This document shows, one piece after another, positions 1 to 37,400 of a stretch of 64,000 bases of DNA. How positions within the stretch are numbered: position 1 is the stretch's first letter; each line of letters begins with the position of its first letter. The notes below the pieces were generated by a model. The model was not told the DNA's origin. It did no database searches and saw nothing but the letters and a program-made list of their open reading frames with translations. Both the position numbers and the translations under genes were made by a program. The stretch is from Limonium bicolor (Eukaryota > Streptophyta > Magnoliopsida > Caryophyllales > Plumbaginaceae), in contig CM041779.1 in NCBI GenBank assembly GCA_023374045.1, positions 146,879,485 to 146,943,484 on the forward strand, read 5' to 3'.

Positions 1-2018
1 CTTTCTTGGTTTAGCCGGTTATTACCGGAGGTTTGTAAAGGACTTCTCGAAAGTCGCTAAGCCCATGACGGCATTGATGAAGAAAGATGCACCCTTTGTA
101 TGGACAGAGGAGTGCGAGCTATCATTTCAGAAATTGAAAGACTCATTGACCTCAGCGCCAATTCTCACACTTCCAGAGGGCACAGAGGGATTTGAGGTGT
201 ATTGTGATGCATCGGGCAAGGGCATGGGATGCGTACTCATGCAGCATGGCAAGGTAGCCTATGCTTCTCGCCAGCTGAAAAAGCATGAGGAGAATTACCC
301 GACACATGATCTAGAGTTAGGAGCCATTGTCTTCGCCTTGAAGATATGGCGACACTATCTCTATGGGGTAAGCATCACCATCTATTCCGACCACAAAAGT
401 CTACAGTACGTATTCACCCAGAAAGAATTGAACCTAAGGCAGAGGAGGTGGATGGAGTTCCTCTCGGATTACGACATCAACCTCCAGTATAAAGAAGGGA
501 AGGCAAACGTAGTAGCCGACGCCCTGAGTCGTCGAGCACACTCGCTCCATTCGCTACTCGCTTCTTCTAGCTTGGTTGACGAGGTGCGAGACGCTCAGTT
601 GAGCGACCCTTACTTCACAGAGATCAGACAGAAAATCACAGATGGTACCTTCGAGCGCCGAAAGTACGACTTCAAACTGCATGAAGATGGTCTGATCCGT
701 TTGAATGGCAGATTATGCGTTCCCCGAAGCAATGCTGAGCTAAGGGATCGCATTCTGCGATAGTCACATTGTTCGACATTGCATGTCCATCCGGAGCCTC
801 TAAAATGTACAAAGACATGAAGAGGTACTTCTGGTGGTCAGGGATGAAGTCAGACGTGACTGAGTATGTTCTGAGGTGTCTCACATGCCAGAAGGTGAAG
901 TTTGAGCACCGAAGACCGGGAGGAATGGTGCAATCCATGCCCATTCCGGAGTGGAAATTCCACGACATCTCCATGGATTTTGTTGTTGGACTCCCACCTG
1001 CTAGGGGAGGACTCAACATGATCTGGGTAGTAGTCGATCGCCTCACCACCAAGGTTGCCCGATTCATACCGATGAAGGACACCTGGAAGGTGGCGAAGCT
1101 CGCAGAGCTATTCGACAAGGAGATCATCCGACACCACGGAGTCCCAAAAACCATTGTATCTGACCGCGACACCAGATTTCTTTCGAGATACTGGAGAGCG
1201 ACACGGGAAGCGCTTGGTACTGAGTTGAAGCTTAGCACCGCCTTCCATCCACAGACCGACGGTCAGACAGAAAGGACCATCCAAACACTAGAGGATATGC
1301 TAAGGGCATGTGCCTAGACTTCCAGGGGCTGGATTGAGAAGCTTCATCTTATCGATGTTTTCGTATAACAATAGCTACCATGCTTCGATTAAGATGTCGC
1401 CATTCCAAGCTTTGTATGGTAGACCTTGCCGTACCCCGTTGTGTTGGGATGAGTCAAGCGAAGCGGTCATCATAGGACCGGAGTATTTGGAACAAGTACA
1501 AGCTGAGGTACAACAAATCCGAGCCAATATGAAGGCAGCCCAAGATAGACAGAAATCCTATGCGGATGTGCGACGACGCGACCTTGAGTTCGCCGTGGGC
1601 GACCAAGTGTCTTGCGCGTGTCTCACCTATGAAGGGTGTCTTTCGATTTGGCCAGAAGGGCAAACTGAGCCCGAAATTTGTAGGCCCGTATGCCATTACC
1701 GAGAGGATTGGAGCCGTAGCTTATAGGCTAGCATTGCCTGAAGAATTGGGGCGTGTTCATGATGTCTTTCATGTATCACAACTCAAGAAATACATAGCCG
1801 ATCCCTCTCATGTATTAGAACCCGAACATCTATCCCTAGAGCCGACGATGAGATATGTCGAGACTCCACTGCGAATCCTTGATACCAAGACAAGAGACAC
1901 TCGCCATAAATCTGTACGAATGGTGAAGGTCTTGTGGTCTAACCACGATGTCGAGGAAGCGACTTGGGAATTAGAGAACGCCATGAAGGCGAAGTACCCG
2001 AATCTATTTGTAGACTAG
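1..2018 (+). pseudogene. Ty3/gypsy Tekay-type chromovirus pol, 3' part (RT end, RNase H, integrase, chromodomain)
   Basis: The window opens inside the reverse transcriptase C-terminus ([18 protein letters not shown]). RNase H follows (about 65-540) with its four acidic positions visible in [28 protein letters not shown] and NVVADALSR. Integrase follows (about 770-1600) with a CX2C zinc pair (LTCQKVK), the catalytic aspartates in ISMDFVVG and VSDRDTRF, and glutamate in DGQTERTIQTLEDM. The C-terminal segment (about 1640-2018) has VHDVFHVSQLKKY and the chromodomain-like end VKVLWSNHDVEEATWE, which marks the Tekay clade. The frame breaks near 760, at a TAG at 1315-1317 and near 1600, so it is a pseudogene or indel-damaged. 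Gag and protease lie outside the window, so I cannot tell whether this copy carried an AlkB module like the minus-strand relative at 24379-25114. Confidence 0.93.
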
Positions 2019-2061
2019 ATGTCTAGTATCCGTATAGCACGGAGGGTACGGGGCGTACCCC

Positions 2062-2077
2062 TTTTAAGGGGGGTAGA
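2062..2077 (+). promoter_or_regulatory. Upstream polypurine tract copy
   Basis: The sequence TTTTAAGGGGGGTAGA is nearly identical to the LTR-adjacent polypurine tract at 2548-2562 but lies close behind the pol stop codon. The minus-strand relative has the same second copy at 20801-20816, so the duplication predates both insertions. Confidence 0.6.
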
Positions 2078-2547
2078 GCCTTTTTGCTTTTGCATTGCTT
2101 CGGGTTAGCATTGCGTAGTATGTATGTATGTAATTGTATTTTGGTTGGCACATGTAGTGCTAAGTGTATTGTATTGGCACAAAGTAGTGCTAGTAGTATT
2201 TGGTATGTAGTACAATGTACGGTATGTATGGTATGTATGTAATGAGTAATGCATTGTGTTGTACGGTATATGACACGAATGACATTGTGAAGTATTGCGA
2301 ATGTATTGTGAATTGTATGAATGGATGGAGCATTGTGTATGGTATTTGAATGAAGTATTGTGTATGGATTGAGTATTGCGTATGGTATTTGAACTAAGTA
2401 TGTGGCATGGTATTTGAATTGCGTATGCTGGTAGTGTAAGAATTGTGAACACCTTGTACGGTGGTAGTAGAATGTATTGTGGCAATTGGCTTGCCAAATG
2501 AGTAGAACGGTAAACTGTAACCTTGAGCAACTTTGGGGGCAAAGTTT

Positions 2548-15202: not shown

Positions 15203-15702
15203 NNNNNNNNNNNNNNNNNNNNNNNNNNNNNNNNNNNNNNNNNNNNNNNNNNNNNNNNNNNNNNNNNNNNNNNNNNNNNNNNNNNNNNNNNNNNNNNNNN
15301 NNNNNNNNNNNNNNNNNNNNNNNNNNNNNNNNNNNNNNNNNNNNNNNNNNNNNNNNNNNNNNNNNNNNNNNNNNNNNNNNNNNNNNNNNNNNNNNNNNNN
15401 NNNNNNNNNNNNNNNNNNNNNNNNNNNNNNNNNNNNNNNNNNNNNNNNNNNNNNNNNNNNNNNNNNNNNNNNNNNNNNNNNNNNNNNNNNNNNNNNNNNN
15501 NNNNNNNNNNNNNNNNNNNNNNNNNNNNNNNNNNNNNNNNNNNNNNNNNNNNNNNNNNNNNNNNNNNNNNNNNNNNNNNNNNNNNNNNNNNNNNNNNNNN
15601 NNNNNNNNNNNNNNNNNNNNNNNNNNNNNNNNNNNNNNNNNNNNNNNNNNNNNNNNNNNNNNNNNNNNNNNNNNNNNNNNNNNNNNNNNNNNNNNNNNNN
15701 NN
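15203..15702. other. Assembly gap of exactly 500 N
   Basis: The round length suggests a placeholder of unknown true size. The gap falls inside the left arm of element A. Confidence 0.99.
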
Positions 15703-15849: not shown

Positions 15850-16395
15850 CAGTGAATCAGAGGTCATTAGACCCTAAATTCTACACTACAAATCCTTCAA
15901 CGTTTTTAGCATTCCTAGGGTGGTTTTTAGGGTGTTTGGGGATAGGGTAATCTTTTTGGCATTAGTTCTACACTTTATATTGTCGTCACTGACTCGATAA
16001 TTTTTTAGGGTATGTGGCTTAAGGTTTAGGGTCGTTAGACCCTAAACGCTGCACTTCAAACCCTAAAAATACCTTCGATGTTTTTAGCATTCCTAGGGTT
16101 ATTTTTAGGGTGGTTTAGGGGGGAGGGGTGGTAGGATAATCTTTTTGGCATTAGATCTACACTTTATAGGTCGTGACTGATTTGACAGTTTTTTAGGGTT
16201 TGTGCTTCAGGGTCGTTAAACCCTGCACTACAAACCATAAAAATGTCTTCGACGGTTTACCATTCCCATATGGTTTTTAGGGTGTTTAGGGGGTAGGGTA
16301 ATCTTTTTAGTCATAGTTCTACACTTTTATTATTCTACACTTTATATCATCGTACTGACTCGACAGTTTTTTAGGGTTTGTGGTTAAAGGTTTTT
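15850..16395. repeat. Telomere-like satellite monomers inside element A
   Basis: About three monomers related to those at 9844-11486 are present: TAGACCCTAAA, CCTTCGATGTTTTTAGCATT, CCTAGGGTGGTTTTTAGGGT and TCTACACTTTATATTGTCGT. They use AGCATTCCTAGGG where the main array has AGCTTTCCTAGGG, so they form a separate subfamily. Confidence 0.8.
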
Positions 16396-17399: not shown

Positions 17400-17774
17400 C
17401 TTTAAATGGTTGTAACTTTTAATATATAAGTCCAAAATAAAAAAAATATTATATCACTATTCACCTAAATTCAAGGTATTCAAAACAAGACCAGTCATGG
17501 ATATGTTTTGACAAGTTTGAAAAAAATCTATTTTTACACATGTATGATGATACACTAAAATGTAATATGATTCATTAATTTTAAATTATGATTCATTAAA
17601 ATTGATATTATCATTATTAACTAATAAGTGGTTGAATTAGATTATAATTTTGGAACTGATAAAAATCATTATTGTTTTGTAGTGTATTATTATTGTTGTA
17701 TGGTGTATTTAAACCTTATATGGTTGAATCAAGTATTTTTCATACATACCAAATATTGTTTTGTGTTATATTAT

Positions 17775-20567
17775 TGTAACACCCCTACAACGCACTTACC
17801 AACTACCGAAATTCGCAGCGGAATTAAACATCTAAATAACAATAACACTATGGTGCTACAACGCCGTTAACCACCCACGTGGTTAACTAGGCAGAATAAA
17901 TACAAGAGTACCGGTCTGATGATCAGACTCCCGAGCATAGGTCCTAACATCCATACATAAACATAACCAAACCATACCGAGTATTTATTTTACATACCAA
18001 CTGTAACCTTAAACACCTGTCACTGTAAACAACAGTACCAACATAAACAACACTACGGGAGCACAGGCGCATCCCGGGTTTATCTTACAAGATCCAAAAG
18101 TATTCCAACAACCTAGGATCTAGAGCCACTCCGCTTCTTCGATCCTCATCCTGCAATAAAATATGGAGCCCCCAGAGGGGGTCAGCAACCTTTTGCTGGT
18201 ATGGTTAACGCGCAGCCCATCGGCTACCGGGATACGCGCAACCAATTGTCATGATAACATGGCATTCATTTTAAACATCCAACATATATATAACATAGCT
18301 TAGCAAGGGAAATTGCGTAGCACAACAATAATACATAACACCATAAATCGGTTCACACAAGGAACCTTCCACCATAATTAGTACACATAGTGAGCCTAGA
18401 GATTAATGCCAATCTCATGCTAAGCTCGTTACCAACCTCGTTACCGTCCAGTTATATCGAACGGTTAACTTAAACCCAAGGCGTGTCGGATATAGTAATC
18501 CCAAGCACACCGAAAACAACATTCGTATGCCCCTGTGGCCCGACGTGAGTCAGTAAACTAGCTTTGGATAAGCTAAGGGAAAGTTGAAACCAAATTGGAA
18601 TACAACCTATACATACACCAAGAGAGTCGAACCGGATAGACATCGACTCCCATCCATCACACACGCGTGGCCGGAACATGACCGGACTCCTCACTTCCCC
18701 GGTTAGCACTTGTTAGTGATCATACAAATAAACTTGTTAAGTCACACACAACAAGTGTTTAGGTCTTGTTAGACACACCAAGGAAAGGAGTCACAACAAT
18801 ACAACATCATAATATATAACAACTGTAAACTCTTTTCATGCCTTAGTCTTATAAGGTCGTAACACACAGAAAAGCAAACAACACCCAAGCCGGTGTAAAC
18901 CGGTAGGCAACAGACTGCAAGAAAACCATACCTTGGTCCTTGCTTCACTGTTCCCACCTTGAGAGAATCCTAAACACATTTAGTAACGTCGGTCAATTAA
19001 CGTACTAGTTCACCGTTAACATTAACTACTTCACATTTCTAGTTATTTCTTTCCACATTTTGTTTTAACTTCCACCTTTTAAAATGTCATATAACTCTCC
19101 TAACATGTCTTATATAACCTATAACATCACCTCTACTTATCCCCATCTTTAGACATCGTTTATAACTAGAACCAAATTTATAGTGGTCCGGGACTTGGTC
19201 CCTTACTTAGGTCCCGGACCTATACTAAACAATCCCCTCGGTTACTTTTAATGGGGTGGTCCGGGACTTCACCCAGGTCCTAAGTCCCGGACCATTCTAA
19301 GCAAATTCTCTCGGACAGTTTTAAGGGATTGGTCCGGGTCCTTGGACAAGAACCAAGTCCCGGACCTACGACCACGTACAACTCTCGTAATTTTTCACTC
19401 ATGGTCCGGGACTTGTCCCATGACTTAGGTCCCGGACCCAAATACAAAGCGACGTACTGGAATTTTTCATGTCTGCTGCGCAAGTTCTCTACACCTATCA
19501 GATATATAAACTTCCCAGTACACTTTATACTCAAAACTTCACCCAAATATACACCACATAACAACGTAGTGCACAATTTAAATTGCATAAATCTTAAACA
19601 CTGAATTTCCACAATATATTTGCCTTTCACCTGCAAATACAAACAGCAGTACGTATGTCCCTTACTAGTCTCTTTGAGAACATTTTCTAAGTCATTTACC
19701 TTTGGCTCTTTAGGTAGTTTCAACAGACAACGTAAGTTTATTTCCAAAGGAATTTTAAGCTACCTTTGGTTAACATAAAACATGGAGGAAACACCATTTT
19801 CTTTGAGTTTCCATACCTTGAAGCAAAGGAGAATAATAATACGTGAAAAGATGAACTCAAGCTCCTTCCCATGGAGATTCCTCTTGGCACCAAATGGAGC
19901 TCTTGAAGATTTGAAGGGACTAAGTCGAAGAGCTTGATGAAACTAAGAGATCGGTGGTCTCGGTTTTAGATTTGGACAAGTGAGCAAGAAGTTACAAGGA
20001 TTTGAAGTTGTATGTTGGTGGTGGTGCTGTTCGATCGTGAAGAGAGCAGCGAAGGGATGGCTACGTGAGATAGTAAGGAAATGAGAGAATGAATGATTGT
20101 AGTTGCTTTTAGAGATATTTAATTATGTAAAGCAAATAGTGCTTTTTCAATTACACTTATCTACTCAATTAGCTAGTACGGGTGGTGATTCACCACATGC
20201 AAACCGACCCCATTTAATAAAAGGGGTTAATTAGTCTTTATTGCTCAATTAATTTACATATTAACATATATTACAAACTAGCTTATTTTAGTTACTATTC
20301 ATAATAACAAGGCACTTTGAAGCGAAATTCTTGATTTCTTATTAATTTAAACTTCCAAATGTGATACTAAATAGTACACATATTAATTAAAGAGTAATGA
20401 TGGACATTTAGCCATTCAAAACTCATTTATAAGACAATTTTCCATTTTTGGCAATTAATTGTATTTACTATTTATTAAATTGTTTACTAATGTTTCTAAG
20501 ACTCTTTTTAGTCTTATTAATTTATTATTTAATATTTAAACCACTTATTAAGGTTTGGGGTATTTCA
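17775..20567 (-). mobile_element. 3' LTR of the minus-strand Tekay-like element
   Basis: On the minus strand the LTR begins TGAAATACCCCAAACC at 20567 and ends GGGGTGTTACA at 17775. It matches the copy at 26912-29695 throughout. Differences are mainly short indels, for example ACACATAGTG here versus ACATAGTG there, and AATTCGCAG versus AATCGCAG. Confidence 0.95.
19184..19439. repeat. Array of four GGTCCGGGAC/GTCCCGGACC palindromes
   Basis: Each unit opens with GGTCCGGGAC or GGTCCGGGTC and closes with GTCCCGGACC, so each can form a hairpin with a stem of at least 10 bases. Units start near 19184, 19258, 19331 and 19403, a spacing of 72-74 bases. The array is repeated at 28311-28566 in the other LTR. 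Confidence 0.92.
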
Positions 20568-20568
20568 A

Positions 20569-20584
20569 TCTACCCCCCTTAAAA
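20569..20584 (-). promoter_or_regulatory. Polypurine tract next to the 3' LTR
   Basis: The plus strand reads TCTACCCCCCTTAAAA, so the transcript reads TTTTAAGGGGGGTAGA, one base from the LTR start at 20567. Confidence 0.88.
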
Positions 20585-20800
20585 GAACTTTGTCCCCAAA
20601 GTTCATACTTCCCACATATCTTATATTCTAAAACATGGGAATCACTTATGAAACAATACTTCCATAACAACATCAACCACATACCTACACAACATGGAAC
20701 TCAAGGTCCAAACACATAATACCATTCAGACTCTAAGGTCTGTAACATAACATAGACGATGTATATAATACATGTCGAATACATCCATAACCGAAACGGC

Positions 20801-20816
20801 TCTACCCCCCTTAAAA
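20801..20816 (-). promoter_or_regulatory. Second polypurine tract, identical 16-mer
   Basis: The same 16 bases as at 20569-20584 occur 232 bases upstream in the transcript, just behind the pol stop codon, beside a GGGTACGGGGCGTACCCC palindrome. The plus-strand relative has the same arrangement. Confidence 0.7.
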
Positions 20817-20849
20817 AGGGGTACGCCCCGTACCCTATACATATAAACA

Positions 20850-23800
20850 CTAAGAAGTAAACAGTGATGGGTACTTCGCCTTCATCTTATCTTCCAGCTC
20901 CCAAGTGGCCTCCTCAACGTCCTGGTTAGACCAGAGGACCTTCACCAGTCTCACGACTTATGGCGAGTGTCTCGAGTCTTAGTATCCAGAATCCGTACGG
21001 GAGTCTCCACTGATCGCATGGTCGGCTCTAAGGTTAGCCTCTCAGGCTGAAGTACATGAGACGGATGAGACATATATTTCTTCAACTGGGACACATGAAA
21101 CATCATGTACCTTGCCCAGCTCAGCAGGTAAATCAAGTCTATAAGCTACTGGTCCTATCCGCTCCGTCACAACATAAGGCCCCACATATTTTGGGCTCAA
21201 CTTGCCTTTCTGGCCAAAACGAAACACTCCCTTCATGGGGGATACCCTAAGAAATACCTGATCGCCTACAGCGAACTCCAGGTCACGTCTGCGTACATCA
21301 GCGTACGACTTCTGTCTATCCTGAGCTGCTTCATGTTAGCCCGGATCTGGCGAACTTCTGCCTGAACCTGTTCCAGATACTCTGGTCCTATAATGACCGT
21401 CTCACTCGACTCATCCCAGCATAAAGGCGTGCGGCATGGTCTACCGTACAATGCCTGGAAGGGAGACATCTTGATCGAAGCATGGTAACTGTTGTTGTAA
21501 CTAAACTCGATCAGATGTAACTTATCAATCCAGCTGGTCTGAAAGTCAAGTGCACATGCACGTAACATATCCTCAAGTGTCTGGATGGTGCGCTCACTCT
21601 GACCATCTGTCTGTGGGTGAAACGCCGTACTCAATTTCAGTTCTGTACCCAGTGCTTCTCGTGTGGACCTCCAATACCTCGATAAGAATCTGGTATCTCT
21701 GTCCGATACAATCGTCTTTGGTACACCATGATGTCTAACAATCTCTCTGTCAAAGAGCTCTGCAAGCTTAGCCACTTTCCAGGTGTCCTTCATCGGTATG
21801 AATCGAGCCACCTTGGTCAGTCGGTCTCAACAACACCCAAATCATATTCAGACCTCCCCTTGTAGGCGGAAGCCCTACTACAAAGTCCATAGAAATGTCA
21901 TGGAACTTCCACTCAGGCACTGGCATTGGCTGCACCATACCACCAGGCCTCGGTGCTCAAACTTGACCTTCTGACAAGTGAGACACCTCAACACATAATC
22001 ATTTACATCCTTTTTCATTCCAGCCCACCAAAAATAACGTTTCATACCCTTATACATCTTTGAAGCTCCAGGGTGAATCGAAGTCGTAGAACTATGGGAT
22101 TCACTGAGTATGCGCTCCTTCAGCTCAGCGCTACTCCTCGGTATACACAGTCGGCCATTAAGCCTAATCAGGTCATCATCGTGGAGTCTGAAGTCGTACT
22201 TCTGACCCTCGAATGTGCCATCAATAAGCTTCTGTCTAATCTCCACCATATACTGATCCGTCATCTGAGCACTCCACCTCTTCAACCAAGCTAGTATGAG
22301 AGACTAGCGAATGGAGAGAGTGTGCTCGGCGACTCAATGCGTCAGCTACCACATTCGCCTTACCCTCCTTATACTGTAAATTGATGTCATAGTCATTTAA
22401 GAATCACCCACCTTCTTTGCCTCATGTTCAACTCTTTCTGAGTGAACAAGTATTTCAAACTCTTGTGGTCAGAATAAATTGTCACGCTTACCCCATACAA
22501 ATGATGTCGCCATATCTTCAATGCGAAGACATGGCACCCAATTCTAAATCGTGGGTAGGGTAGTTCTCTTCATGCTTCTTCAGCTGTCGGGAGGCGTACG
22601 CTACGACCTTCCCGTGTTGCATCAACACACAACCCATACCCTGCCTGATGCGTCGCAATAAACCTCAAAACCATCTGGACCGTCTGGTATAGTCAGGACT
22701 GGTGCAGATGTCAGAGCATCCTTGAGCTTCTGAAAGGAAATCTCACAGTCGGCTGTCCACTCGAATGGTGCATCCTTTTTCATCAAGGAAGTCATCGGTT
22801 CGAGACACTGGAGAAGTCCCTCACAAATCTCCTATAATAACCTGCCAGACCGAGGAAGCTCCTATATCGGTAACTGTCTTCGGCCTAGGCCAGGTGCGCA
22901 CTGCATCTATCTTTGCCGGATCCACAGCGATCCCGCCTCAGAAATCACATGGCCAAGAAAGAAACTTGGTCCAACCAAAATTCACACTTAGAAAATTTTG
23001 CATACAACTGATTCTTCCTCAGTTTGTAACACATTTCTCAGGTGGCTTTCATGCTCACCTCTCGATTTCGAATACACAAGTATGTCATCAATGAAGACTA
23101 CCACTGATTTGTCCAACTGATCTTGGAACAAACGGTTCATCAGGTCCATAACTTAGCTGGTGCATTGGATAAACCAAACGGCATAACCGTAAACTCATAA
23201 TGTCCATATCTGGTTCTGAACGCTGTTTTCTCAATATCACTGTCCTTAACTGCAATCTGATGATAACCGGATCGTAAATCTATCTTGGAGAACACTGATG
23301 CTCCTCTCAACTGATCAAATAAGTCGTCGATGCGTGGTAAAGGATAACGGTTCTTCACCGTAACTGCATTCAGCTCTCGATAGTCAATACAAAGGCGGAG
23401 GCTACCGTCCTTCTTCTTCACGAAGAGGACCGGCGCTCCCCATGGTGAAACACTAGGGCGGATAAAGCCCTTGTCGTAGGTCTCTCAGCTGCTCCTTGAG
23501 CTCTGTCATCTCTGCTGGAGCCATACGATAAGGTGCCTTCGCAATAGGTCCGGTGCCTGGAATCAAATCAATCTCAAACTCAACCTCCCGTGCTGGCGGC
23601 ATGCCCGGCAGTTCCTTAGGAAATACATCAGGAAACTCCGAGACTACCGGCACATCTGGGCTAAACTCAGGGTCTCTCTCTATGTCCTGGACATAGCAGA
23701 GGTATACATCATTCCCTCGTCGTAACTCACGATACATGGCCATGGCGGTGATGATCTGTGTCGAAGGCTCCCTGGGCCTCTGGCGGTATGATATAGTAAC

Positions 23801-24203
23801 CCCAGATGGACTCCGAAGAAGCAGTCGATGCTCGGCACATAGGATTCCCTTGTACCGCTCCAACCAGTTCATCCCGATAATCACATCAAAACCAAGTCCG
23901 TCGAACTCTATCAAGTCGATCGGAAACTCTTCCTCCCTGATACGTATAACAACATCTCGGTAGTAGCGGGTACACCTGATCCGCTCTTTCGACGGGAGAG
24001 TGACCACAAAGTCTGGCATCTCTTCACCGTCTAACCCCAGCCTCTTCGCAAACGATAGCGAAATAATGTTGTGAGGCTCCAGAGTCGAACAAGACGATGC
24101 ATCCACGCCATTCACTGGAAAGGTACCGGTGAGGATTGTGCCGCTCTTGCTGGCTTCTGCCTTATTGCAGACACTCAGCATACCTCCCGTTCCGTGTGCA
24201 CAG
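20850..24203 (-). pseudogene. Tekay-type pol: protease, RT, RNase H, integrase, chromodomain
   Basis: The protease lies around 24160-23850. Its DSGAS active site is visible across a one-base shift just before HNIISLSFAKRLGL. Reverse transcriptase (about 23600-22850) shows [40 protein letters not shown] and the catalytic FIDD near 23080. RNase H (about 22750-22330) has EVYCDAS and IYSDHKSL. Integrase (about 22285-21266) keeps the CX2C pair, VSDRDTRF and DGQSERTIQTLEDM. The C-terminus ends in a chromodomain-like segment and stops at TAG 20850-20852. A possible 3' splice site, TGCAAATGAATTAG, lies just upstream at about 24204. At least eight one- or two-base frame changes break the frame. Amino-acid identity to the plus-strand pol at 1-2018 is visibly high. 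Confidence 0.93.
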
Positions 24204-24378
24204 CCTAATTCATTTGCAAACTCATAAGTATACAGTAGTAACACGTTGACATACTCAAAACAACATCTCTTATTCATAACACACTCCTTACACCATAAGT
24301 TGGTTTACATTGTAGACATGGTTAAACATAGCTTCCTTAGCATACAACTGGCTTAATACGTTACATGATTACACAAGG
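24204..24378 (-). other. Non-coding spacer between the AlkB module and protease
   Basis: This stretch has stops in every plausible continuation and ends at the candidate acceptor AATTAG near 24204. It may be an intron or a translational break between ORF1 and pol. I could not find a consensus GT donor before the AlkB stop codon. Confidence 0.4.
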
Positions 24379-25114
24379 CTAAAACTGCCTGAAAGTCAAA
24401 TTCAAACGTCCGGGTTTCAGATGTGTGGCATTTACCACTGCTGATGGTGCGGTATTCAGTTTGATCTTCTTGATACCGTGGTATAACATCCTTGATTGTC
24501 CACCCATAATTAACACATCACCTGATTTCAACACTAACTTCCTTGCGAGGTCACCACGCTTCTGCTCGCCATATATAAACACTGCGGTATCACCAATGGA
24601 CCAAGACACCACGGGTACTCCCTTACTAGAGACTCGGGTGACTCGTCCTTATCTTGGTGTAATCCCAACCGTCCACCCTTCTGGTAGAAGTTCACAATAC
24701 AAAGATCTGCCTTAACGTTCGGAATCGGTTCCGATTCAACTTGCTGAGCAATTCCCACGGCGTGGTTAACGACCGCAAGGAACTCCTCAGGTATACCTGG
24801 TACAGTTGCTTCATCTCAGCTCGCACTTCTTGATATGACTTGGTGTAAGGATTCCAGTCCTTACCCATGCACATCATCTTCAGCTTCATCTTCGAACCAC
24901 TCGGGTACGGGTGTGTAGAAACCTCCTGGTGCTGCTCCAAGTTCGTTGCATCGCCTGATGATGTGGATTTGTGCTTCCGGTGTCAGGTATCCATTTAAGA
25001 GTATCATACCTGGCTGGATAACCTGACATTGCTCCAGTGGGAATTCGGTGATGCTGATGGCTGTCTCTTCAGGGTTCGGTGTGGGCGGGATTGGATAACA
25101 GATATTGAAGGTTC
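24379..25114 (-). CDS. AlkB-type 2-oxoglutarate/Fe(II) dioxygenase domain inside the retrotransposon
   Basis: AlkB enzymes oxidatively remove alkyl or methyl groups from nucleic acids. About 245 residues match the family in order: IQPGMILLNGYLTPEAQ, ELGAAPGGFYTP, KMKLKMMCMGKDWNP, IVNFYQKGGRLGLHQDKDES with the HxD metal ligands (His 24657-24659, Asp 24651-24653), SIGDTAVFIYG, LKSGDVLIMGGQSRMLYHGI with the second metal His (24478-24480), and GRLNLTFRQF with the Arg residues that bind 2-oxoglutarate. A TAG at 24379-24381 ends it at the usual family C-terminus. By eye the closest relatives are plant ALKBH1-like proteins. Frame shifts of one or two bases lie near 24905, 24790 and 24620; all catalytic residues survive. 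It is preceded by a candidate intron that joins it in frame to gag. Length and content are those of a complete catalytic domain. Confidence 0.9.
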
Positions 25115-25238
25115 CTAAGTTTTCATTTCACATTATTCTTTAATTCACTACTTAGGTGATACATTAGACTCACTAATACAACACTCATGCATGAAATGCG
25201 GTAAGCAATCACTTTTCACTTAACAGTTTAGGTGGTAC
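25115..25238 (-). other. Candidate spliceosomal intron 3 (between zinc knuckles and AlkB)
   Basis: On the minus strand the donor is GACCAG|GTACC and the acceptor is GAAAACTTAG|GAACC, 124 bases. The sequence between has in-frame stops. Removal gives CCA-G/GA-ACC, a phase-1 junction that fuses the Gag tail PSSRP to GTFNICYPIPP at the head of the AlkB module. Confidence 0.75.
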
Positions 25239-25582
25239 CTGGTCTAGAAGAGGGTCCTGGTGCCTCAGACCGGTCCACTACATTCAGGGCGGCCTTGCCG
25301 GTCCCTGTTCCCTTCCCCTTCTGGGATTCAGTGTACTTCTTGTCAGAGGGCTGCTGCATGATCGCCTTTGGGTTCTCGTGGTCGCGGTAGTCTTACCCTT
25401 CCACTGCCCCTTTGGCTTATAGTTCCTACCATTGGGGTTCTGCCAGCACTCAAACTCGCGGTGCCCCATCTTCTGGCAGTAACGACACTGCACGTCGTTC
25501 CCCTTGCAGTCTTTGCCGGGGTGGTCTCCGTTACACCACTTACAGTAAAAGTGGCGCTCCGGTCCAGAGCCCGCGCTATCTG

Positions 25583-25661
25583 CTATAACAATACACAATC
25601 AATACTCACTTCACATCTTAACAACATATATTTCAACTTGACACATGGTTAATCAATTACC
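25583..25661 (-). other. Candidate spliceosomal intron 2 in gag
   Basis: The donor is CCTAAGG|GTAATTG and the acceptor is TTGTTATAG|CAGATAG on the minus strand, 79 bases. Splicing gives AAG-G/CA-GAT, phase 1, joining the linker SYPPK to ADSAGSGPERHFYCKWC just before the first zinc knuckle. Confidence 0.7.
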
Positions 25662-25918
25662 CTTAGGCGGGTAGGAGCGTAGAGGCTTTGCTGCATACGC
25701 ATATGTGAGCTTCAGTGGCTCATCGCTGTGGTGGTCTGGGCTTGGCCCTTGTCACCCTGGTACTGACTCTTCTGGGGCTGAGGGTAGTGTTTCTTTTTCT
25801 TTCCTCCCCCATACCCTTGCTGACTCTGGCCCTCATTCGTGACCTTGCGCTTGTGCGCATTCTCCTCGTCCCTCAGACGGACGGTAATCTCAACCTTAGC
25901 AGCGGCATGATAGCACTC

Positions 25919-26018
25919 CTGAATTTAGGATCAGCCATGCCCCGCAAAACAAAACTCACCAACTCACATCAACATTCACTTAAAGTATAACTGATTCACA
26001 ACACGGTATTTTAATTAC
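25919..26018 (-). other. Candidate spliceosomal intron 1 in gag
   Basis: The donor is CCTTGCAG|GTAATT and the acceptor is CTAAATTCAG|GAGTGC on the minus strand, exactly 100 bases. The unspliced frame stops soon after VIKIPCCESVIL. Splicing restores TTLQ/ECYHAAAKVEIT in phase 0. Confidence 0.75.
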
Positions 26019-26894
26019 CTGCAAGGTAGTATACTCAACTGGCCCCATCCCGTAGCGGAGACGGTGGCTAAGACCATTGTAGAACCGGTTCACCAGCACC
26101 CGGTTCGAGTATCCAAGGTCCGGTAACAGGTGGATAAGGTCGGTGAATGCGGTGTAGTAGTCATCAACCGACATCTTATCCCCCTGCCTCAGACTATCCA
26201 GCTCGAGGCGCTTAGCCTCTTGCACATGCACAGGGTAATACTTGCTCGCAGTAGAGCCGTGTACTCCCTCCAACCAAACGCAGGATCAGCCATCCTGTCC
26301 TCCTTCACAAGCTTCCACCAACTCTGTGCCGAACCCTTCAGGTAGTAAGCGGCAAGACGGACCTTAGCTTCAGCAGGTACTGCCAAGGTCTCGTAGGCGG
26401 TCTCCAGCCGGAGATGTACGCCTCCAGCTTACTAGGGTCGGTCTCCCCATTGAATGACGACGGTCTCAAATCAGCCAACGCCTTGACCCAATTGGTCTCT
26501 CGTGGCGGTGGTGGTGGTGGCTGAACACCGGGCTGTTGCCCCTGCTGCATCGCAGTAACCAACTGGGGTACCATCTGGGCACGGCGGCTGCTACTGCCTC
26601 AGCCCAGCCATGGTCTGTGCCGTAGTGTCGTCGCCCTGGTCACCCTCATCTCCAGTACCGCGCCCCGGCCTCTACCTCGTGGTCTACCTGACATCTGAAT
26701 TCACATGAACATTTCATTAGCATTATGCTTGCACACTTACCAATCCAACGATTGTAACATCTTCCCAGCAACAAGCTAATTCCACACTTAGTTAGTGGTT
26801 AACCTTCCCAATCTGTTCACCTAGGTAGCTAGGGTTGGGTTTTCTAACTCGGTATGTTTCTAGCTCGGTATTCTAGTCATCAGAGCGATACTTC

Positions 26895-26906
26895 GCTCTG
26901 ATACCA
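26895..26906 (-). promoter_or_regulatory. Primer binding site (initiator tRNA-Met)
   Basis: The minus strand reads TGGTATCAGAGC five bases inside the 5' LTR. This is the complement of the 3' end of plant initiator tRNA-Met, used to prime minus-strand DNA synthesis. Confidence 0.95.
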
Positions 26907-26911
26907 CTTTT

Positions 26912-29695
26912 TGTAACACCCCTACAACGCACTTACCAACTACCGAAATCGCAGCGGAATAAACATCTAAATAACAAAACTATGGTGCTACAACGCCGTT
27001 AACCACCCACGTGGTTAACTAGGCAGAATAAATACAAGAGTACCGGTCTGATGATCAGACTCCCGAGCATAGGTCCTAACATCCATACATAAACATAACC
27101 AAACCATACCGAGTATTTATTTTACATACCAACTGTAACCTTAAACACCTGTCACTGTAAACAACAGTACCAACATAAACAACACTACGGGAGCACAGGC
27201 GCATCCCGGGTTTATCTTACAAGATCCAAAAGTATTCCAACAACCTAGGATCTAGAGCCACTCCGCTTCTTCGATCCTCATCCTGCAGTAAAATATGGAG
27301 CCCCCAGAGGGGGTCAGCAACCTTTTGCTGGTATGGTTAACGCGCAGCCCATCGGCTACCGGGATACGCGCAACCAATTGTCATGATAACATGGCATTCA
27401 TTTTAAACATCCAACATATATAACATAGCTTAGCAAGGGAAATTGCGTAGCACAACAATAATACATAACACCATAAATCGGTTCACACAAGGAACCTTCC
27501 ACCATAATTAGTACATAGTGAGCCTAGAGATTAATGCCAATCTCATGCTAAGCTCGTTACCAACCTCGTTACCGTCCAGTTATATCGAACGGTTAACTTA
27601 AACCCAAGGCGTGTCGGATATAGTAATCCCAAGCACACCGAAAACAACATTCGTATGCCCCTGTGGCCCGACGTGAGTCAGTAAACTAGCTTTGGATAAG
27701 CTAAGGGAAAGTTGAAACCAAATTGGAATACAACCTATACATACACCAAGAGAGTCGAACCGGATAGACATCGACTCCCATCCATCACACGCGTGGCCGG
27801 AACATGACCGGACTCCTCACTTCCCCGGTTAGCACTTGTTAGTGATCATACAAATAAACTTGTTAAGTCACACACAACAAGTGTTTAGGTCTTGTTAGAC
27901 ACACCAAGGAAAGGAGTCACAACAATACAACATCATAATATATAACAACTGTAAACCTTTTCATGCCTTAGTCTTATAAGGTCGTAACACACAGAAAAGC
28001 AAACAACACCCAAGCCGGTGTAAACCGGTAGGCAACAGACTGCAAGAAAACCATACCTTGGTCCTTGCTTCGACTGTTCCCACCTTGAGAGAATCCTAAA
28101 CACATTTAGTAACGTCGGTCAATTAACGTACTAGTTCACCGTTAACATTAACTACTTCACATTTCTAGTTATTTTTTCCACATTTTGTTTTAACTTCCAC
28201 CTTTTAAAATGTCATAATAACTCTCCTAACATGTCTTATATAACTCTATAACATCCCTACTTATCCCCATCTTTAGACATCGTTTAATAACCTAGAACCA
28301 AATTTATAGTGGTCCGGGACTTGGTCCCTTACTTAGGTCCCGGACCTATACTAACAAATCCCCTCGGTTACTTTTAATGGGGTGGTCCGGGACTTCACCC
28401 AGGTCCTAAGTCCCGGACCATTCTAAGCAAATTCTCTCGGACAGTTTTAAGGGATTGGTCCGGGTCCTTGGACAAGAACCAAGTCCCGGACCTACGACCA
28501 CGTACAACTCTCGGTAATTTTTACACTCATGGTCCGGGACTTGTCCCATGACTTAGGTCCCGGACCCAATATACAGAACGACGTACTGGAATTTTTCATG
28601 CTCTGCTCGCAAGTTCTCTACACCTATCAGATATATAAACTTCCCAGTACACTTTATACTCAAAACTTCACCCAAATATACACCACATAACAACGTAGTG
28701 CACAATTTAAATTGCATAAATCTTAAACACTGAATTTCCACAATATATTTGCCTTTCACCTGCAAATACAAACAGCAGTACGTATGTCCCTTACTAGTCT
28801 CTTTGAGAACATTTTCTAAGTCATTTACCTTTGGCTCTTTAGGTAGTTTCAACAGACAACGTAAGTTTATTTTCCAAAGGAATTTTAAGCTACCTTTGGT
28901 TAACATAAAACATGGAGGAAACACCATTTTCTTTGAGTTTCCATACCTTGAAGCAAAGGAGAATAATAATACGTGAAAAGATGAACTCAAGCTCCTTCCA
29001 TGGAGATTCCTCTTGGCACCAAAGTGGAGCTCTTGAAGATTTGAAGGGACTAAGTCGAAGAGCTTGATGAAACTAAGAGATCGGTGGTCTCGGTTTTAGA
29101 TTTGGACAAGTGAGCAAGAAGTTACAAGGATTTGAAGTTGTATGTTGTGGTGGTGCTGTTCGATCGTGAAGGAGAGCAGCGAAGGGATGGCTACGTGAGA
29201 TAGTAAGGAAATGAGAGAATGAATGATTGTAGTTGCTTTTAGAGATATTTAATTATGTAAAGCAAATAGTGCTTTTTCAATTACACTTATCTACTCAATT
29301 AGCTAGTACGGGTGGTGATTCACCACATGCAAACCGACCCCATTTAATAAAAGGGGTTAATTAGTCTTTATTGCTCAATTAATTTACATATTAACATATA
29401 TTACAAACTAGCTTATTTTAGTTACTATTCATAAAACAAGGCACTTTGAAGCGAAATTCTGATTTCTTATTAATTTAAACTTCCAAATGTGATACTAAAT
29501 AGTACACATATTAATTAAAGAGTAATGATGGACATTTAGCCATTCAAAACTCATTTATAAGACAGTTTTCCATTTTTGGCAATTAATTGTATTTACTATT
29601 TATTAAATTGCTTACTAATGTTTCTAAGACTCTTTTTAGTCTTATTAATTTATTATTTAATATTTAAACCACTTATTAAGGTTTGGGGTATTTCA
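26912..29695 (-). mobile_element. 5' LTR of the minus-strand Tekay-like element
   Basis: This is the partner of 17775-20567, with the same termini and the same order of blocks. The outer end at 29695 abuts the ATTAT target duplication (29696-29700). It includes the second copy of the GGTCCGGGAC palindrome array. Confidence 0.95.
28311..28566. repeat. GGTCCGGGAC palindrome array, second LTR copy
   Basis: Same four-unit array as 19184-19439, in the other LTR. The palindrome arms are preserved while small indels occur in the spacers. Confidence 0.92.
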
Positions 29696-30412
29696 ATTAT
29701 TGTTTATTTTTTTATTTTTAGATGTTTATGTTAATGCATTAAAGGGATGATATGATTCACTAAATTTGATATTATGATTAATTTTAATTGATATTATGAC
29801 TCATCAATTAATAAGTGGTGAATTAGATAACAAACTTCATAACCGATAAAAAATCCTTATTGTTTTGTAGTGCATTATTATTGTTGTATGGTGTATTTTA
29901 AACCTTCTACGGTGAATCATTTATTTTTCATACATACAAAATATTATTTTGTGTTGTATTATTGTTTAATTTGTTTCTATTTTATATGTTTATAATGATA
30001 CACAAAAATGAAAATATGATTCATTAATTTTGATATTATGATTCATTAACTAATAAATAGTGTATTAAATAACAAACTACAGAACAAATACTGAATCATT
30101 ATTGTTTTGTGGTGTATTATTAATGTTATATGGTGTATTTTAAACTGTATGCGGTGAATCATAAGTGTCGTTAATATATGTTGATATGTACATATAACTA
30201 ACATAAATTTTTAAACTAGTCAAAACATATCCATGATTGATCTTGTTTTAAAGAGCTTGAATTTAGATAAACAATGGTGCAATTTTATTTATTTATTTTG
30301 GACTAGTAATTTAATAGTTACAATCATTTAGTGGCAATGAAATGTTTTTTGTTCTTTTGATTTGGGGAAATCAATGAGTATAGGTTTGTTCCGGCTCTCT
30401 GCTTCGATCTAA

Positions 30413-31990: not shown

Positions 31991-32032
31991 GGGTCTCTTC
32001 TAGAAAGCTAACTGCTTTGGAAGACGATCAAG

Positions 32033-33546
32033 ATGTCTCATGCAAGCATTCTAGTAGTAGAAGAAGGTTCTGCACCAAATCGACCACCACTCTTCAATGG
32101 AGACAACTACACTCACTGGAAGAACAAGCTGGAGTTTCATATCAAGTCTGACGATCCAAGAATGTGGAGGGTGATAACACATGGAGAGTACACCTTCCAG
32201 AATCCTCAAGGACATGACATATCTATCGACATCATGACGGATGATCAAATCAAGAAGCTGGTATTCAACGCTCGAGCTGTAAGAATACTTCACTGTGCAC
32301 TACTACCTGAGCAATACTCCAAGATTGCTTCAGCTAAAACAGCCCAAGAGATTTGGAAAACTCTTGAGGTCACCTATGAAGGGAATGATGAGATAAAAAA
32401 GACTTGCATTGAGTTGCTACTCACTCACTGGGAGCTATTCAAGAAGGAAGAAAAGGAGAGCATTTCTGAAATGCATACAAGTTTCACTAAGCTGATCAAC
32501 GAAATGTTGGTGCTTGGAAGAACTATCTCTAACGAGGATCAAATTCGGAAGTTCCTCGGATCTCTTCATGTAACCTTTGAAAGCAAAGTCAATGCCATGC
32601 AAGAAGTGCATGATCTCTCCAAAATGTCTCTGACAGACATGCTAGGATCTCTAATGGCTTTCGAGTTAAAACTATAACACAGGAACTCAGGAAGCACGTC
32701 AAGAGATAGAGGGAAAGGCATAGCCCTTCAAGTAGCTGAAAATGAAAGGTCCGAGTTAGGAGACGACAATGATGAAATGGTCCTCTATGCTAAGAGGTAC
32801 ATTCAAAAGTTCATAAGAAATAAAATGGGGAAAGGCAAGGAGTCGGATGATCAGAGGAAGAGCAATGACAAGTGTTTTGAGTGTTCAAAACGCGGACATC
32901 ATATCAAAGACTGCCCTCAGCCATCGCGAGAGGACAACGACAGGGTCAAGAAGCCTGTCTGATGATCATTTAACAAAGGACCAAGGAAGGAAGCCTTCGT
33001 TGCCGCATGGGGAGATTCTGAACGGAGTGATGACAATCAAACCTCAGACAGCGACATTTCAGAAGATGAGAAGGCTCACCTATGCCCTGAAGAAGTGTGC
33101 TTGACGGCACAAGGCAATGATGTCTCAGAATCAAAAGAAGAAGAACAACAACAACATAAGGTGAACTATTCTAAACTTAGAAGGAGAATTCAAAAGGTTG
33201 AACTTCTAGGACTTAGAAAGTTTTCTCTTATATTAGTTGATCACCCAAAGGCATTAGAAACTGAAAACGATGAACTTTGAAAGAAAATGAAAAATTGAGA
33301 AAAACCTTGGATAAAAGCAAGGTAGATAATCTCATGAGGGCACTCATGAAATTACAAAGAGATTATAGTGAAATTCTCTCCGTTCATAAAAAATTGATGC
33401 ATGAAAAACAACCTGAAATCGATGAATTGATTGTTGCTCTTAACGCTAAAGAAAAGGAACTAGCTACCATCAAAGAAAAATATTCTAAGATAGGAGCTGT
33501 TTCCAAGACACCCATGAGGAGAAGCAAACGACAGGTCGGATACCGG
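32033..33546 (+). pseudogene. Copia gag (UBN2-type) with a CCHC zinc knuckle, interrupted
   Basis: The start is ATG at 32033 after a short leader. The first 214 residues are a typical Copia Gag: PPLFNGDNYTHWKNKLEF, KTAQEIWKTLEVTYEG, FTKLINEMLVLGRTISNED. A TAA at 32675 ends the frame. The continuation encodes the zinc knuckle CFECSKRGHHIKDC (about 32874-32915), an acidic segment, and a coiled-coil-like stretch (EKLRKTLDKSKVDNLMRALM) through 33546. There a hAT MITE splits the frame after RSKRQVG. Capsid and nucleocapsid functions are inferred from the family. Frame breaks near 32960 and 33280 show the copy is dead. Confidence 0.88.
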
Positions 33547-34410
33547 TAGGGGTGGCAATTCGGGTTAATGGGTCGGGTTGAAGCTCACCCATACCCAACC
33601 CGATTAAAATTGTATTGACCCATACCCGACCCAATAATATTCGGGTTACAAATTATCAACCCATACCCAACCCATATAAAATGATTAAACCCATACCCGA
33701 CCCGTTTAACCCAACATAATTAGGCTATGTAAAATTTAAAAGACCTGGAATTAATTTTTTTTATGATTGCTCAAACGGAATTACTAATGAATGAAATCAT
33801 ACATTCAATATGGTAGATATTCCAGAGTTTTCATTATCCTCCGTCTTTTTTCTTTTTCCACATACATGTCATGCTTAGTGGCACTTAACAGAAGAAGGTG
33901 ATGTGTACGCGTCTGGGCCAAATATAACTGTATTTTCTCCTTCAGAATGTAGAATCAAAACATAGACAAAAATCTTCAGAGTACAGAAGAGATAGGACCA
34001 CAGTGGGAGCTGTGGAGGACAGAGCAACACACTGTCTTTTGACAATCCACATAACGAATACTCTTGTTTTTACTTTATAAAGAAATACAATAAAGTAGTA
34101 TTATCAAATAAACAACCTCTCATCAAAAAGATACTACATAATCTGTATTATACTAATAGTAGGTTAGCACTTATTTAGTAATATATTTATATTTTTATCT
34201 AATTATTTATTTATTATTATTAATAAAATAAAATAAACGGGTCGGGTTGACTACGGGTTAGGACTTTAAACCCATACCCAACCCACAAATTTAATAGAAA
34301 ACCCATACCCGACCCAATAATTAAATGGGTCAATAATCGTGACCCAAGCCCGCTATTTTCGGGTTGGGTATGGGTCGGGTTATCGGGTTGGGTAAAAATT
34401 GCCACCCCTA
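33547..34410. mobile_element. hAT non-autonomous element (864 bp)
   Basis: TAGGGGTGGCAATT at the left and AATTGCCACCCCTA at the right are perfect 14-base terminal inverted repeats. The 8-base target duplication GATACCGG flanks it (33539-33546 and 34411-34418), as expected for hAT. Subterminal regions are packed with GGGTCGGGTT and ACCCGACCC repeats. There is no transposase. Confidence 0.95.
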
Positions 34411-37400
34411 GATACCGGTCAAAGACCAGACGTAGAGATGTCTGCAGCTTATGTAGACAACTTGGTCATCATGAATCCAATTGCTATAAAACGAGTTTTA
34501 TGAGGCATTGGCAACTCAAGAAACTAGGACTAAAATGGGTAGTAAAAAATGATCTTAGAACATTAAATGGTGGAAATGGGTCCAACCTTTATATGGACCC
34601 TAACCCCACACCATTAACGTGTTAAGTGTAGAATCGAGTGAGAATGGACCCCTGCTGGTACATCGACAGTGGGTGCTCTAAACACATGACAGGAGACAAA
34701 AAGAAGTTCTTCTCACTCGAACCAGGAAGCCAAGGAACTGTTTCCTTTGGCGACAACAAGAAAGGAAAAGTCATCGGTGTAGGTAAGGTTGGTATTACGT
34801 CTGATTATGTCATAGATAGTGTAAATCTAGTTCATGGTTTAAAATTCAACTTGCTTAGTATTTCTCAAATTTGTGACAAAGGCAATTCAGTTCACTTATG
34901 TCCTACACATTGTAGTATAGTAAGTTAGAACAATGGCAAAGAGTTGTTAAAGGGAAAAAGGTGGAAAAATGTTTACGTAACAAGCTTAGAGGATATTGAC
35001 GTTCCAAATCTTCCATGCTTGACTACTTCAATAGATGACTCTACACTATGACACAAAAGACTAGGGCATGTTAGCACTTCTTTACTAAGAAAACTTGTCA
35101 AGAAAAAGTTGGTAAGAGGTTTTCCTGAGATTAAAGAATCTGAGACCAATCTTTGTGATTCTTGTGTTAGAAGCAAACAGAATAAGACTTCTTTTAAATC
35201 AAAGAACTTAGTTAGTACATCCAAGCCACTTGAATTACTTCACATGGACTTATGTGGACCTATGAGAGTCAAAAATTTTGGAGGAAATTGGTATGTGTTT
35301 GTAATTGTTGATGATTACTCACGGTTTATTTGGACACTCTTTATTGCTTCCAAAGACGAAGTCTTTGAGAAATTTCAAGCCTTTACAGGAAAATTCCAAG
35401 TACAACTCAATCTCAAGATCAAAACTCTTCAGTCTGATCATGGGTCAGAGTTTGAGAATCAACAATTCATGGATATGTGTAAACAACATGGGATTAGTCA
35501 CACATATTCAGCACCAAGAACACCCCAACAGAATGGGGTAGTTGAGCGAAAGAACAGAACACTACAAGAGGTAGCCAGGGTCATGCTATTGGGGAGCAGT
35601 CTTCCTCAGGTCTTCTGGACAGAAGCAGTGGCAACTGCATGCTACATCACAAATAGAACGCTCATACGACCTATCCTCAACAAAACTCCCTATGAGTTAA
35701 TCAAGGGAAGAAAACCAAACATAAGTCACTTTAGAACTTTCGGATGCAAATGCTTTGTCCACAACAATGAAAAGAGGCCCCTTGGAAAGTTTGATGCCAG
35801 AAGTGATGTGGCCATCTTCCTTGGATACTCTGAAAGAAGCCGGGCATACAAAATATACAACACAAGGACATTGAAGGTGGAGGAAAGTGTGCACGTAGTC
35901 TTTGATGAGGCTGACATACACAAGGTCAAGGAATATGATGAAGATAAAGAACTTGGATTCAATCTAGCTGATCAGGATTACATAGATACTCCCAAAGATG
36001 AATCACCGACTGAAGAAAACTTGCCCGACAGGTTAGCGACAGGTCAACAACAGGTCGACGAAGGAAATAATGATGTCGAGGATCATCTCTCTCCATCTAC
36101 CATTCATCAATCTCGTGCTTTGTACAAAAATCATCCATTGGAGAATATCATATCAGACATATCCAAAGGAACTCAGACAAGAGCACAAACTCGAGATCTT
36201 CGAGCCTTCTCAACGATAGTCTCACCCATTGAGCCCAAGAACGTCAAAGCTCTTCGAGACTCAGACTGGATCAATGCAATGCAAGAAAAAATAAACCAGT
36301 TTAAAAGATGCAAAGTCTGGCATCTTGTGCCTCGTCCTACTCATCAAGGAGTACTTGGCACAAAATGGGTCTTTAGAAATAAGCTGAATGAAATGGGAGA
36401 AGTTGTCAGGAACAAAGCTCGTCTGGTAGCACAAGGATATCGTCAACAAGAAGGAATAGACTTCCAAGAAACCTTCGCTCTAGTAGTAAAGATGGAATCT
36501 ATCAGATTACTAATTGCATTTGCTGCACACAAAGGAATCAAACTCTTCCAACTTAACATCAAAAGTGCCCTCCTAAATGGGTACGTCAAAGAGGAAGTGT
36601 ATGTTGAGCAACCTCCAGGTTTTGAGACACAAGAAGGAAAAGACATAGTACTCAAACTTGACAAAGCTCTTTACGGGCTCAAACAAGCACCAAGATCATG
36701 GTATGATCGTCTGTCCTCCTATCTATTGGAAAACCACTTTAAAAGAGGTAAAGTAGACAAAACTCTATTTGTTTAAAACAATAAAAGAGATTTCCTAATT
36801 GTGCAAGTATATGTTGATGATATAATTTTCTAAGCCTCTGATGAGAAATATTGCAAAAAGTTTGAAGCATTGATGAAAAAGGAATTTGAGATGAGTGATC
36901 TAGGAGAATTGAAGTTCTTCCTAGGACTTCTAGTCATGGAGAATAATGAAGGGACCATCATATCCCAAGAGAAGTATGTAAAAGATTTGCTGAAGAGATT
37001 TGGAATGGAGGAATGTAAGACGTTTGACACACCAATGGCAGTTGGCACTAAGATGAGCATCATGACTGGTGACCGACCGGTCGACCAGCGATCTTACAGA
37101 GAGATGATTGGTTCTCTACTATATTTAACTGCTAGTAGGCCTGACATCATGTATAGCATTTGCTTATGTGCTAGGTTTCAAGCAGATCCAAGAGAAAGTC
37201 ACCTCACAGCTGTAAAAAGAATCATACGTTACTTAAAAGGAACCATGAATCTTGGTCTCTTTTATCCTAAGTTCAATAACTGTTACGTTGTAGGATTTTC
37301 AGATGCAGACTATGGAGGATCTATCACCGATAGAAAAAGCACTTCAAGGACAGCATTCTTTAATGGGTCTTGCCTGAATGCATGGGGATTAAAGAAACAA

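Follow-up and report, generated by a model that had tools for sequence, protein, structure and literature searches.

The window, i.e. the whole stretch of 64,000 nucleotides of Limonium bicolor DNA that was analysed (contig CM041779.1), harbours a Ty3-type LTR retrotransposon of 11,921 bp on the minus strand (17775-29695), with an apparent exon for an AlkB-type dioxygenase between the regions encoding the zinc knuckles of Gag and the protease (Table 1). The two LTRs differ by 27 substitutions over 2774 aligned sites (K2P 0.0098) plus 21 small indels, and the element is flanked by the ATTAT duplication that had been described in the initial annotation together with near-identical LTRs. A primer binding site, which we take to be of the initiator Met tRNA type, and a polypurine tract were found by eye. 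With near-identical LTRs, target duplication, primer binding site and polypurine tract, the window element belongs to the LTR retrotransposons, and with RVP_2, RVT_1, Integrase_H2C2 and SH3_Tf2-1 in that order it belongs to the Ty3 superfamily. The Pfam matches were obtained with separate open pieces: PF03732 (E 3.5e-9), RVP_2 (2.4e-17), RVT_1 (1e-17), Integrase_H2C2 (3e-19) and SH3_Tf2-1 (6.5e-20). The integrase core of the window copy gave a weak match (E 0.012), and the knuckles matched PF00098 only with E 0.0084, which is under its cutoff. At the left end of the window, a distantly related sister element is present with its pol part, which matches RNase H, integrase and SH3; Pfam recognised RNase H in this sister copy only, not in the window copy. 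A chromodomain (PF00385) was matched in the sister copy with E 9.3e-4 and 19.5 bits, under the cutoff of 25.1, and the end of the window copy, VKVLWSNQDVEEATWELED, looks alike. The lineage presumably resembles the Tekay (Del) clade of chromoviruses. Tekay is described in PMC6317226 as known from seed plants only.

Table 1 Features of the AlkB-bearing element and of the neighbouring sister element, in window coordinates.
Feature	Position	Strand	Remarks
pol part of distant sister element	1..2084	+	75% nucleotide identity to window element
Target site duplication ATTAT, left	17770..17774		read from sequence
3' LTR	17775..20567	-	2793 nt
Polypurine tract AAGGGGGGTAGAT	20568..20580	-	by eye; adjoins 3' LTR
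pol: protease (RVP_2), RT (RVT_1), RNase H region, integrase (Integrase_H2C2), SH3_Tf2-1, chromodomain-like end	20850..24204	-	several frame breaks
Remaining predicted intron, AlkB stop to protease acceptor	24205..24378	-	66% AT
Predicted AlkB exon (ALKBH1-type 2OG-Fe(II) dioxygenase)	24379..25114	-	ends in TAG; frame-broken in window copy
Predicted intron 3a, shared donor GTACC to AlkB acceptor	25115..25238	-	124 nt
gag exon 3, two CCHC zinc knuckles, end = CTAGACCAG	25239..25582	-	knuckles seen in translation
Predicted gag intron 2, GT..AG	25583..25660	-	78 nt, 72% AT
gag exon 2	25661..25918	-	
gag intron 1, GT..AG	25919..26018	-	100 nt, 63% AT
gag exon 1, capsid domain PF03732 in piece 25980-26285	26019..26694	-	frame-broken in window copy
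Primer binding site TGGTATCAGAGC	26895..26906	-	by eye; 5 nt off 5' LTR
5' LTR	26912..29695	-	2784 nt
Target site duplication ATTAT, right	29696..29700		read from sequence

The surroundings of the element contain further repeats. A Ty1/copia element (32012-37757) has a gag piece with a PF14223 match and frames of 574 and 308 amino acids that resemble its pol by eye, Transposase_32 ('putative plant transposon protein') was found in two long open frames (38318-40144, plus strand; 43427-44293, minus strand), and a remnant of a hAT-type transposase (PF05699) adjoins a DUF4371 frame (60603-62366, minus strand). Further, a diverged tandem array with a unit of 170 nt spans 9867-11109, with related copies about 5 kb off at 15883-16331, and an assembly gap of 500 N is located at 15203-15702. 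Rfam gave no match anywhere in the window at gathering score.

The AlkB module corresponds to the base to one apparent exon, which begins at 25114 (AG/GAACC) and closes with the TAG of 24379-24381. In the window copy it is split into at least four frame pieces (24861-25127, 24692-24982, 24534-24815 and 24379-24648), which were analysed separately and unjoined. PF13532 (2OG-FeII_Oxy_2) was matched by the piece 24534-24815 (E 1.4e-9), which contains HQD, and by the piece 24379-24648 (E 7.8e-23), which contains YHG and PGRLNLTFRQF; the two N-terminal pieces were without a PF13532 match, yet are similar to the same relatives as the C-terminal pieces. Since the module is frame-broken, the window copy as it stands cannot produce an AlkB enzyme. 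The open module of another copy in the genome, L111, matched PF13532 with E 1.6e-47, and its closest solved structure was 5xeg/5xoi (E 5e-69), which we take to be a rice protein, followed by E. coli AlkB with the catalytic residues aligned. The HxD motif, the distal His and both Arg residues, which had been read from the window module before, are indeed present there, and the same residues of L111 are those that align with E. coli AlkB. Judged by domain and motifs, the module belongs to the AlkB/ALKBH1 family and encodes a predicted dioxygenase domain with HxD..H and R..R.

A protein search with the C-terminal AlkB piece returned 224 proteins from 256 candidates, and the 120 listed ones were evaluated. 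Every AlkB piece of the window scored highest with P0002 or P0003 among these 120. Four proteins (P0002-P0005, source 'ena') were 65-72% identical, above the other listed proteins (120 of 224), which are nearly all plant ALKBH1-type proteins with 53-62% identity and NCBI names including ALKBH1C/1D. In a tree of 121 rows, the window piece and P0002-P0005 formed one clade with a support of 100/98; the clade with P0002-P0005 was recovered with 97/89 when whole modules of five copies from the same genome were used and with 99/93 when the window piece was used. Rooted with eight bacterial AlkB proteins from GTDB contigs as outgroup, the element clade was placed next to the sampled land plant genes rather than within them. 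A tree that joins the element clade to angiosperm genes, with the fern outside, was not rejected (AU p 0.24), which leaves more than one possible donor lineage for the module. By tree and relatives the module is ALKBH1-type, and the initial annotation had likewise called it ALKBH1-like. HQD, H and R..R are complete in P0002-P0004; P0005 has them too, save for the last Arg, as its sequence ends short of it. The start of P0002, LG-[PT]-F-[DN]-I-C, sits like that of the element modules. Among the 120 listed of the 224 proteins, none with an NCBI name fell into the element clade. From the clade, the lack of NCBI-named members among those listed and the start of P0002, we infer that P0002-P0005 lie in elements as well. 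Viral contigs gave no relative of P0002 or P0003, and the 80 loci kept from GTDB contigs were bacterial AlkB with at most 47% identity to P0003.

The assembly of L. bicolor (2,924,550,425 bases in 2686 contigs, eight main contigs of 136-540 Mb) was then searched for further copies; a loose first look gave 36,142 candidates, a number which is not a copy count. The C-terminal AlkB piece was matched at 150 of 150 scored places, and open frames of at least 245 amino acids were present at 50 of them. For twenty places whose open frame measures 230-270 amino acids (L111-L130), the flanks were read as well, and all had the order gag, zinc knuckles, AlkB, protease. HQD was conserved in 19 of these fully read copies (absent in L130), YHG and R..R in all 20, although L115, L127 and L130 contain locally shifted stretches despite their open frame. 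The 30 best matches, read as stretches of 3.3 kb, likewise followed the order zinc knuckles, AlkB, protease (30/30), with a capsid piece in 28; one of them (L085) is the window copy itself and another (L106) is without the N-terminal AlkB part. All 50 copies read across the region (20 + 30) were chosen by their AlkB match. The neighbouring sister element, L132, was chosen by position (its pol is that at 1-2084), and its order of zinc knuckles, AlkB and protease is identical. Over the last 80 residues, its AlkB (PF13532, E 4.9e-20) has an identity of 79%; HQD, YHG and PGRLNLTFRK are retained, but this module is frame-broken as well. The initial annotation had placed AlkB between the Gag zinc knuckles and the protease, which agrees with the PF13532, gag and RVP_2 matches and with the order in the 50 copies and L132; it had also stated that the absence of the module from every other copy, or the loss of the HxD/H/R residues from all of them, would speak for a single passive transduction, and the genome copies revealed the opposite on both counts. 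The break ahead of the piece 24379-24648 is common to the window copy and six other places (L081-L084, L086 and L087); therefore, copies without a working AlkB also spread, perhaps aided by intact ones.

Selection on the module was analysed with eight pairs drawn from seven of the 20 copies (L111, L118, L120, L122, L123, L126 and L128). Over 246 codons, dN/dS amounted to 0.06-0.12 (dN 0.018-0.039, dS 0.25-0.38) with upper bootstrap limits of at most 0.20; the choice of copies by open frame and by similarity of the C-terminal part depresses dN there. Against L132, dN/dS was 0.09-0.14 with a dS of 0.9-1.3 (80 codons). In a comparison that covered 12 of the 20 copies, dN/dS of the N-terminal part was 0.05-0.24 as long as neither L127 nor L130 was involved; the close pair L120-L126, which has a low dS, gave 0.44, and values of up to 0.70 were found in pairs containing L127 or L130 because these two hold shifted stretches. 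The introns differed at about 9-33% of sites in four of the eight pairs and, therefore, silent and noncoding sites evolve at a like pace. In sum, the check across copies that had been suggested for this element shows purifying selection on the AlkB module, with dN/dS at 0.06-0.14. Together, these data speak for an ALKBH1-like coding sequence that has become a stable part of a chromovirus-like family and is maintained by selection, as opposed to a single passive capture.

How could the module be expressed? Three stretches of 100, 78 and 124 nt in the gag region start with GT, end with AG and have an AT content of 63-72%, compared to 42-52% in coding stretches, and the exon ends flanking each of them fit a single frame. 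Joining donor 3 (25238) to the AlkB exon, which starts at 25114, preserves the frame, and so does joining it to the protease exon (24204); with its sequence GTACC, donor 3 is a weak site by plant splice rules. In the alignment of the 20 copies, the acceptors of AlkB and protease were AG in all of them, donors 2 and 3 were GT in all of them, and donor 1 was GT in all 18 copies that bear the intron. The AG of the intron 2 acceptor (25582 in the window) is absent in four of the 20 (L120, L125, L126 and L127), which have an alternative, frame-preserving AG 3 nt on. In L132, splice sites are found at equal exon places and in equal phase, with introns of 86, 90 and 187 nt and 65-69% AT; compared to shuffles, intron 2 showed no likeness and introns 1 and 3a slight likeness. 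Site conservation, composition and frame thus indicate that gag has introns and that AlkB is an exon within a gag-protease intron, a feature that the initial annotation had overlooked.

Fossils of splicing were found among the genomic copies. Intron 1 is precisely missing in L104, L115 and L118 (3 of 49 measured) and in L154 and L165 (2 of 38 measured), and L143 comes close to such a loss. At least two events of intron 1 loss are likely, given that the identity of L104 to the other copies is only about 92%. Intron 2 is missing in L140 (1 of 37) with a junction that is off by 2 nt, and in none of 46 copies of the other set. Intron 3a is precisely missing in L096 (1 of 48; 0 of 38 in the second set), the sole Gag-AlkB fossil observed. 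Here a stop-free frame leads from the zinc knuckles via SSRPGTFNICYP about 55 residues into AlkB and then meets a stop; this junction had been predicted from the frames alone before it was discovered in L096. Exact loss of an intron in a retroelement copy is as expected from reverse transcription of spliced RNA, and the fossils show that intron 1 is spliced and that Gag was spliced to AlkB at least once. The survey comprised copies selected by AlkB, and such copies cannot reveal a Gag-Pol junction.

From these data we propose the following model. Long ago, a Tekay-like chromovirus lineage would have acquired an ALKBH1-type dioxygenase of plants and retained it as an exon in an intron between Gag and Pol. 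Gag would end after the zinc knuckles, with the intron then separating Pol, and one 5' splice site would be used with two in-frame 3' splice sites. Use of the near acceptor (25114) would give Gag-AlkB, terminating at the AlkB stop; use of the far acceptor (24204) would skip AlkB and give Gag-Pol; and retention of the intron would give Gag alone, as a stop occurs a few codons past the donor. The Gag part could then carry AlkB into the virus-like particle, beside the RNA and cDNA of the element, where the packaged enzyme may strip nucleic acid of methyl or alkyl groups; the initial annotation had suggested that AlkB may demethylate the element's own RNA or cDNA or affect chromatin marks. Since NCBI lists several of the plant relatives under the name DNA N(6)-methyladenine demethylase, DNA or cDNA may be the substrate just as well as RNA with m6A. 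A Gag-AlkB fusion via splicing is likely because copies with exact intron loss show splicing and L096 joins the knuckle-bearing Gag to AlkB in frame; packaging of the enzyme is possible. The Gag-Pol splice, production of the proteins, packaging, enzyme activity and substrate are inferred from sequence. For the scheme as a whole, that is ancient capture of an ALKBH1-type gene, alternative 3' splicing to Gag-AlkB or Gag-Pol and a particle-borne enzyme, we estimate a probability of roughly 0.7.

The strongest competitor, which we regard as less likely, is that AlkB is selected as a free or cleaved cytoplasmic enzyme that acts on host or element RNA, for example by removal of m6A as proposed for an orchid element, with the Gag fusion being just its route of expression. 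The module contains a Met (PGMILL or PGMVLL), the open frame of L111-L130 often begins a few codons ahead of the acceptor, and the protein of the orchid element, encoded in a separate ORF and not fused to Gag, is reported in PMC9289625 to remove m6A in vitro. However, acceptor and Gag frame are retained throughout the 20 copies as well as in L132, the codons upstream of the acceptor vary freely, as in an intron, and L096 displays the Gag-AlkB fusion itself. Considerably less probable is that the region mainly sets the ratio of Gag to Gag-Pol, the AlkB stop merely ending the Gag product in a manner comparable to EVADE splicing or the Ogre intron: the outline is similar, with an intron between gag and the rest and a stop past the donor, but a mere stop requires no dioxygenase, and the amino acid constraint over the whole module shows that the enzyme is selected. 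Both roles can coexist.

Two further explanations concern the broken state of the window copy and the origin of the module. The frame breaks could be assembly errors in a copy that is truly intact, and 21 small indels to 27 substitutions between the LTRs is an odd ratio for neutral plant DNA; we consider this improbable, since at least one break is common to six other places, and open frames of 574 and 609 amino acids elsewhere in the window argue against general noise. The shared break and the long frames thus leave general sequencing noise unsupported as the only source of frame breaks. It is very improbable that a single element acquired the coding sequence of a host ALKBH1 by accident and carries it without function: the window copy is frame-broken and one break recurs at six further places, so that broken copies spread too, but open frames of at least 245 amino acids at 50 of 150 scored places, dN/dS values of 0.06-0.14 across subfamilies at a dS of up to about 1, AlkB at the same place in the distant subfamily of L132 and the catalytic residues retained by the clade-mates P0002-P0005 (P0005 save its cut end) speak against it, and a single passive transduction was rejected on the genome copies, the placement in L132 and dN/dS.

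Comparison with known systems puts the model of a spliced, Gag-linked AlkB into context. The AlkB domain of plant RNA viruses lies in the replicase. AlkB is borne by Alpha- and Betaflexiviridae and Closteroviridae, with a proposed role in RNA repair or demethylation (cited in PMC9289625); the likeness to the Limonium element, in both cases a mobile or viral genome of plants that encodes an AlkB, is drawn from descriptions. Ty3 elements with AlkB are already known: PMC9289625 describes Ty3/gypsy elements of Phalaenopsis (Gypsy_Pa_2799) that carry a 2-ODD (AlkB) domain, an m6A demethylase in vitro. According to this account they are Tat/Ogre-like, 25.5 kb in size with LTRs of 6.4 kb and an ALKBH5-like protein in ORF2 beside a single gag-pol ORF, and are called recent, occurring in two Phalaenopsis species and in no other of 121 plant genomes. 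Like these, the Limonium element is a Ty3 LTR retrotransposon of an abundant family that retained an AlkB dioxygenase with its catalytic residues. Unlike them, it is 11.9 kb in size, chromovirus-like and old, and its ALKBH1-type exon between zinc knuckles and protease appears to be spliceable to Gag. With its ALKBH1-type relatives and the placement between Gag and protease it falls outside the Phalaenopsis 2-ODD kind, the orchid element having been compared by description. Thus lineage, AlkB type, place and spliced expression differ. The main text of PMC6317226 does not use the words 'AlkB' and 'dioxygenase'. The initial annotation knew of no described LTR retrotransposon with this layout; this part may hold, as the gag-AlkB-protease layout may be new, judged against a limited literature search on AlkB in LTR retrotransposons, whereas AlkB in an LTR retrotransposon as such had been described in PMC9289625.

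With plant ALKBH1-type genes the modules share the family, the catalytic residues and the F-[DN]-I-C motif near the start, and the L111 module is 48% identical to the ALKBH1-type protein of Elaeis guineensis. Unlike these genes, the element modules are without about 11 residues ahead of the IVNFY motif and form a clade of their own with P0002-P0005. As to splicing, plant LTR elements are generally without introns, with Ogre and EVADE as exceptions named in a 2025 review (PMC12786077); the intron of Ogre separates gag-prot from RT (PMC6317226, Neumann 2019), and splicing of EVADE skips the protease (PMC12786077). As in Ogre and EVADE, partial splicing of the transcript would decide which coding parts join gag; unlike in these, three introns are predicted, the third of which encloses an enzyme exon.

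Taken further, an old chromovirus lineage would build AlkB into its particles by a choice between 3' splice sites and thereby clean the RNA or cDNA of the element, and this would be the second independent capture of AlkB by Ty3 elements, of another type; this extended reading is tentative, and we give it somewhat less than even odds. If the second independent capture is true, it suggests that methylation of nucleic acids is a general barrier for plant retrotransposons. Two Ty3 lineages appear to hold two AlkB types, ALKBH5-like in orchids and ALKBH1-type here, and AlkB is strongly constrained between subfamilies with about one silent change per site; therefore, two captures and strong constraint would indicate that retrotransposons are truly hindered by methylated or alkylated RNA or cDNA. 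With several introns in gag, the chromovirus-like family may also be a further exception in a group described as generally without introns (PMC12786077), and the splice anatomy offers a direct route to asking if the enzyme travels within the particle.
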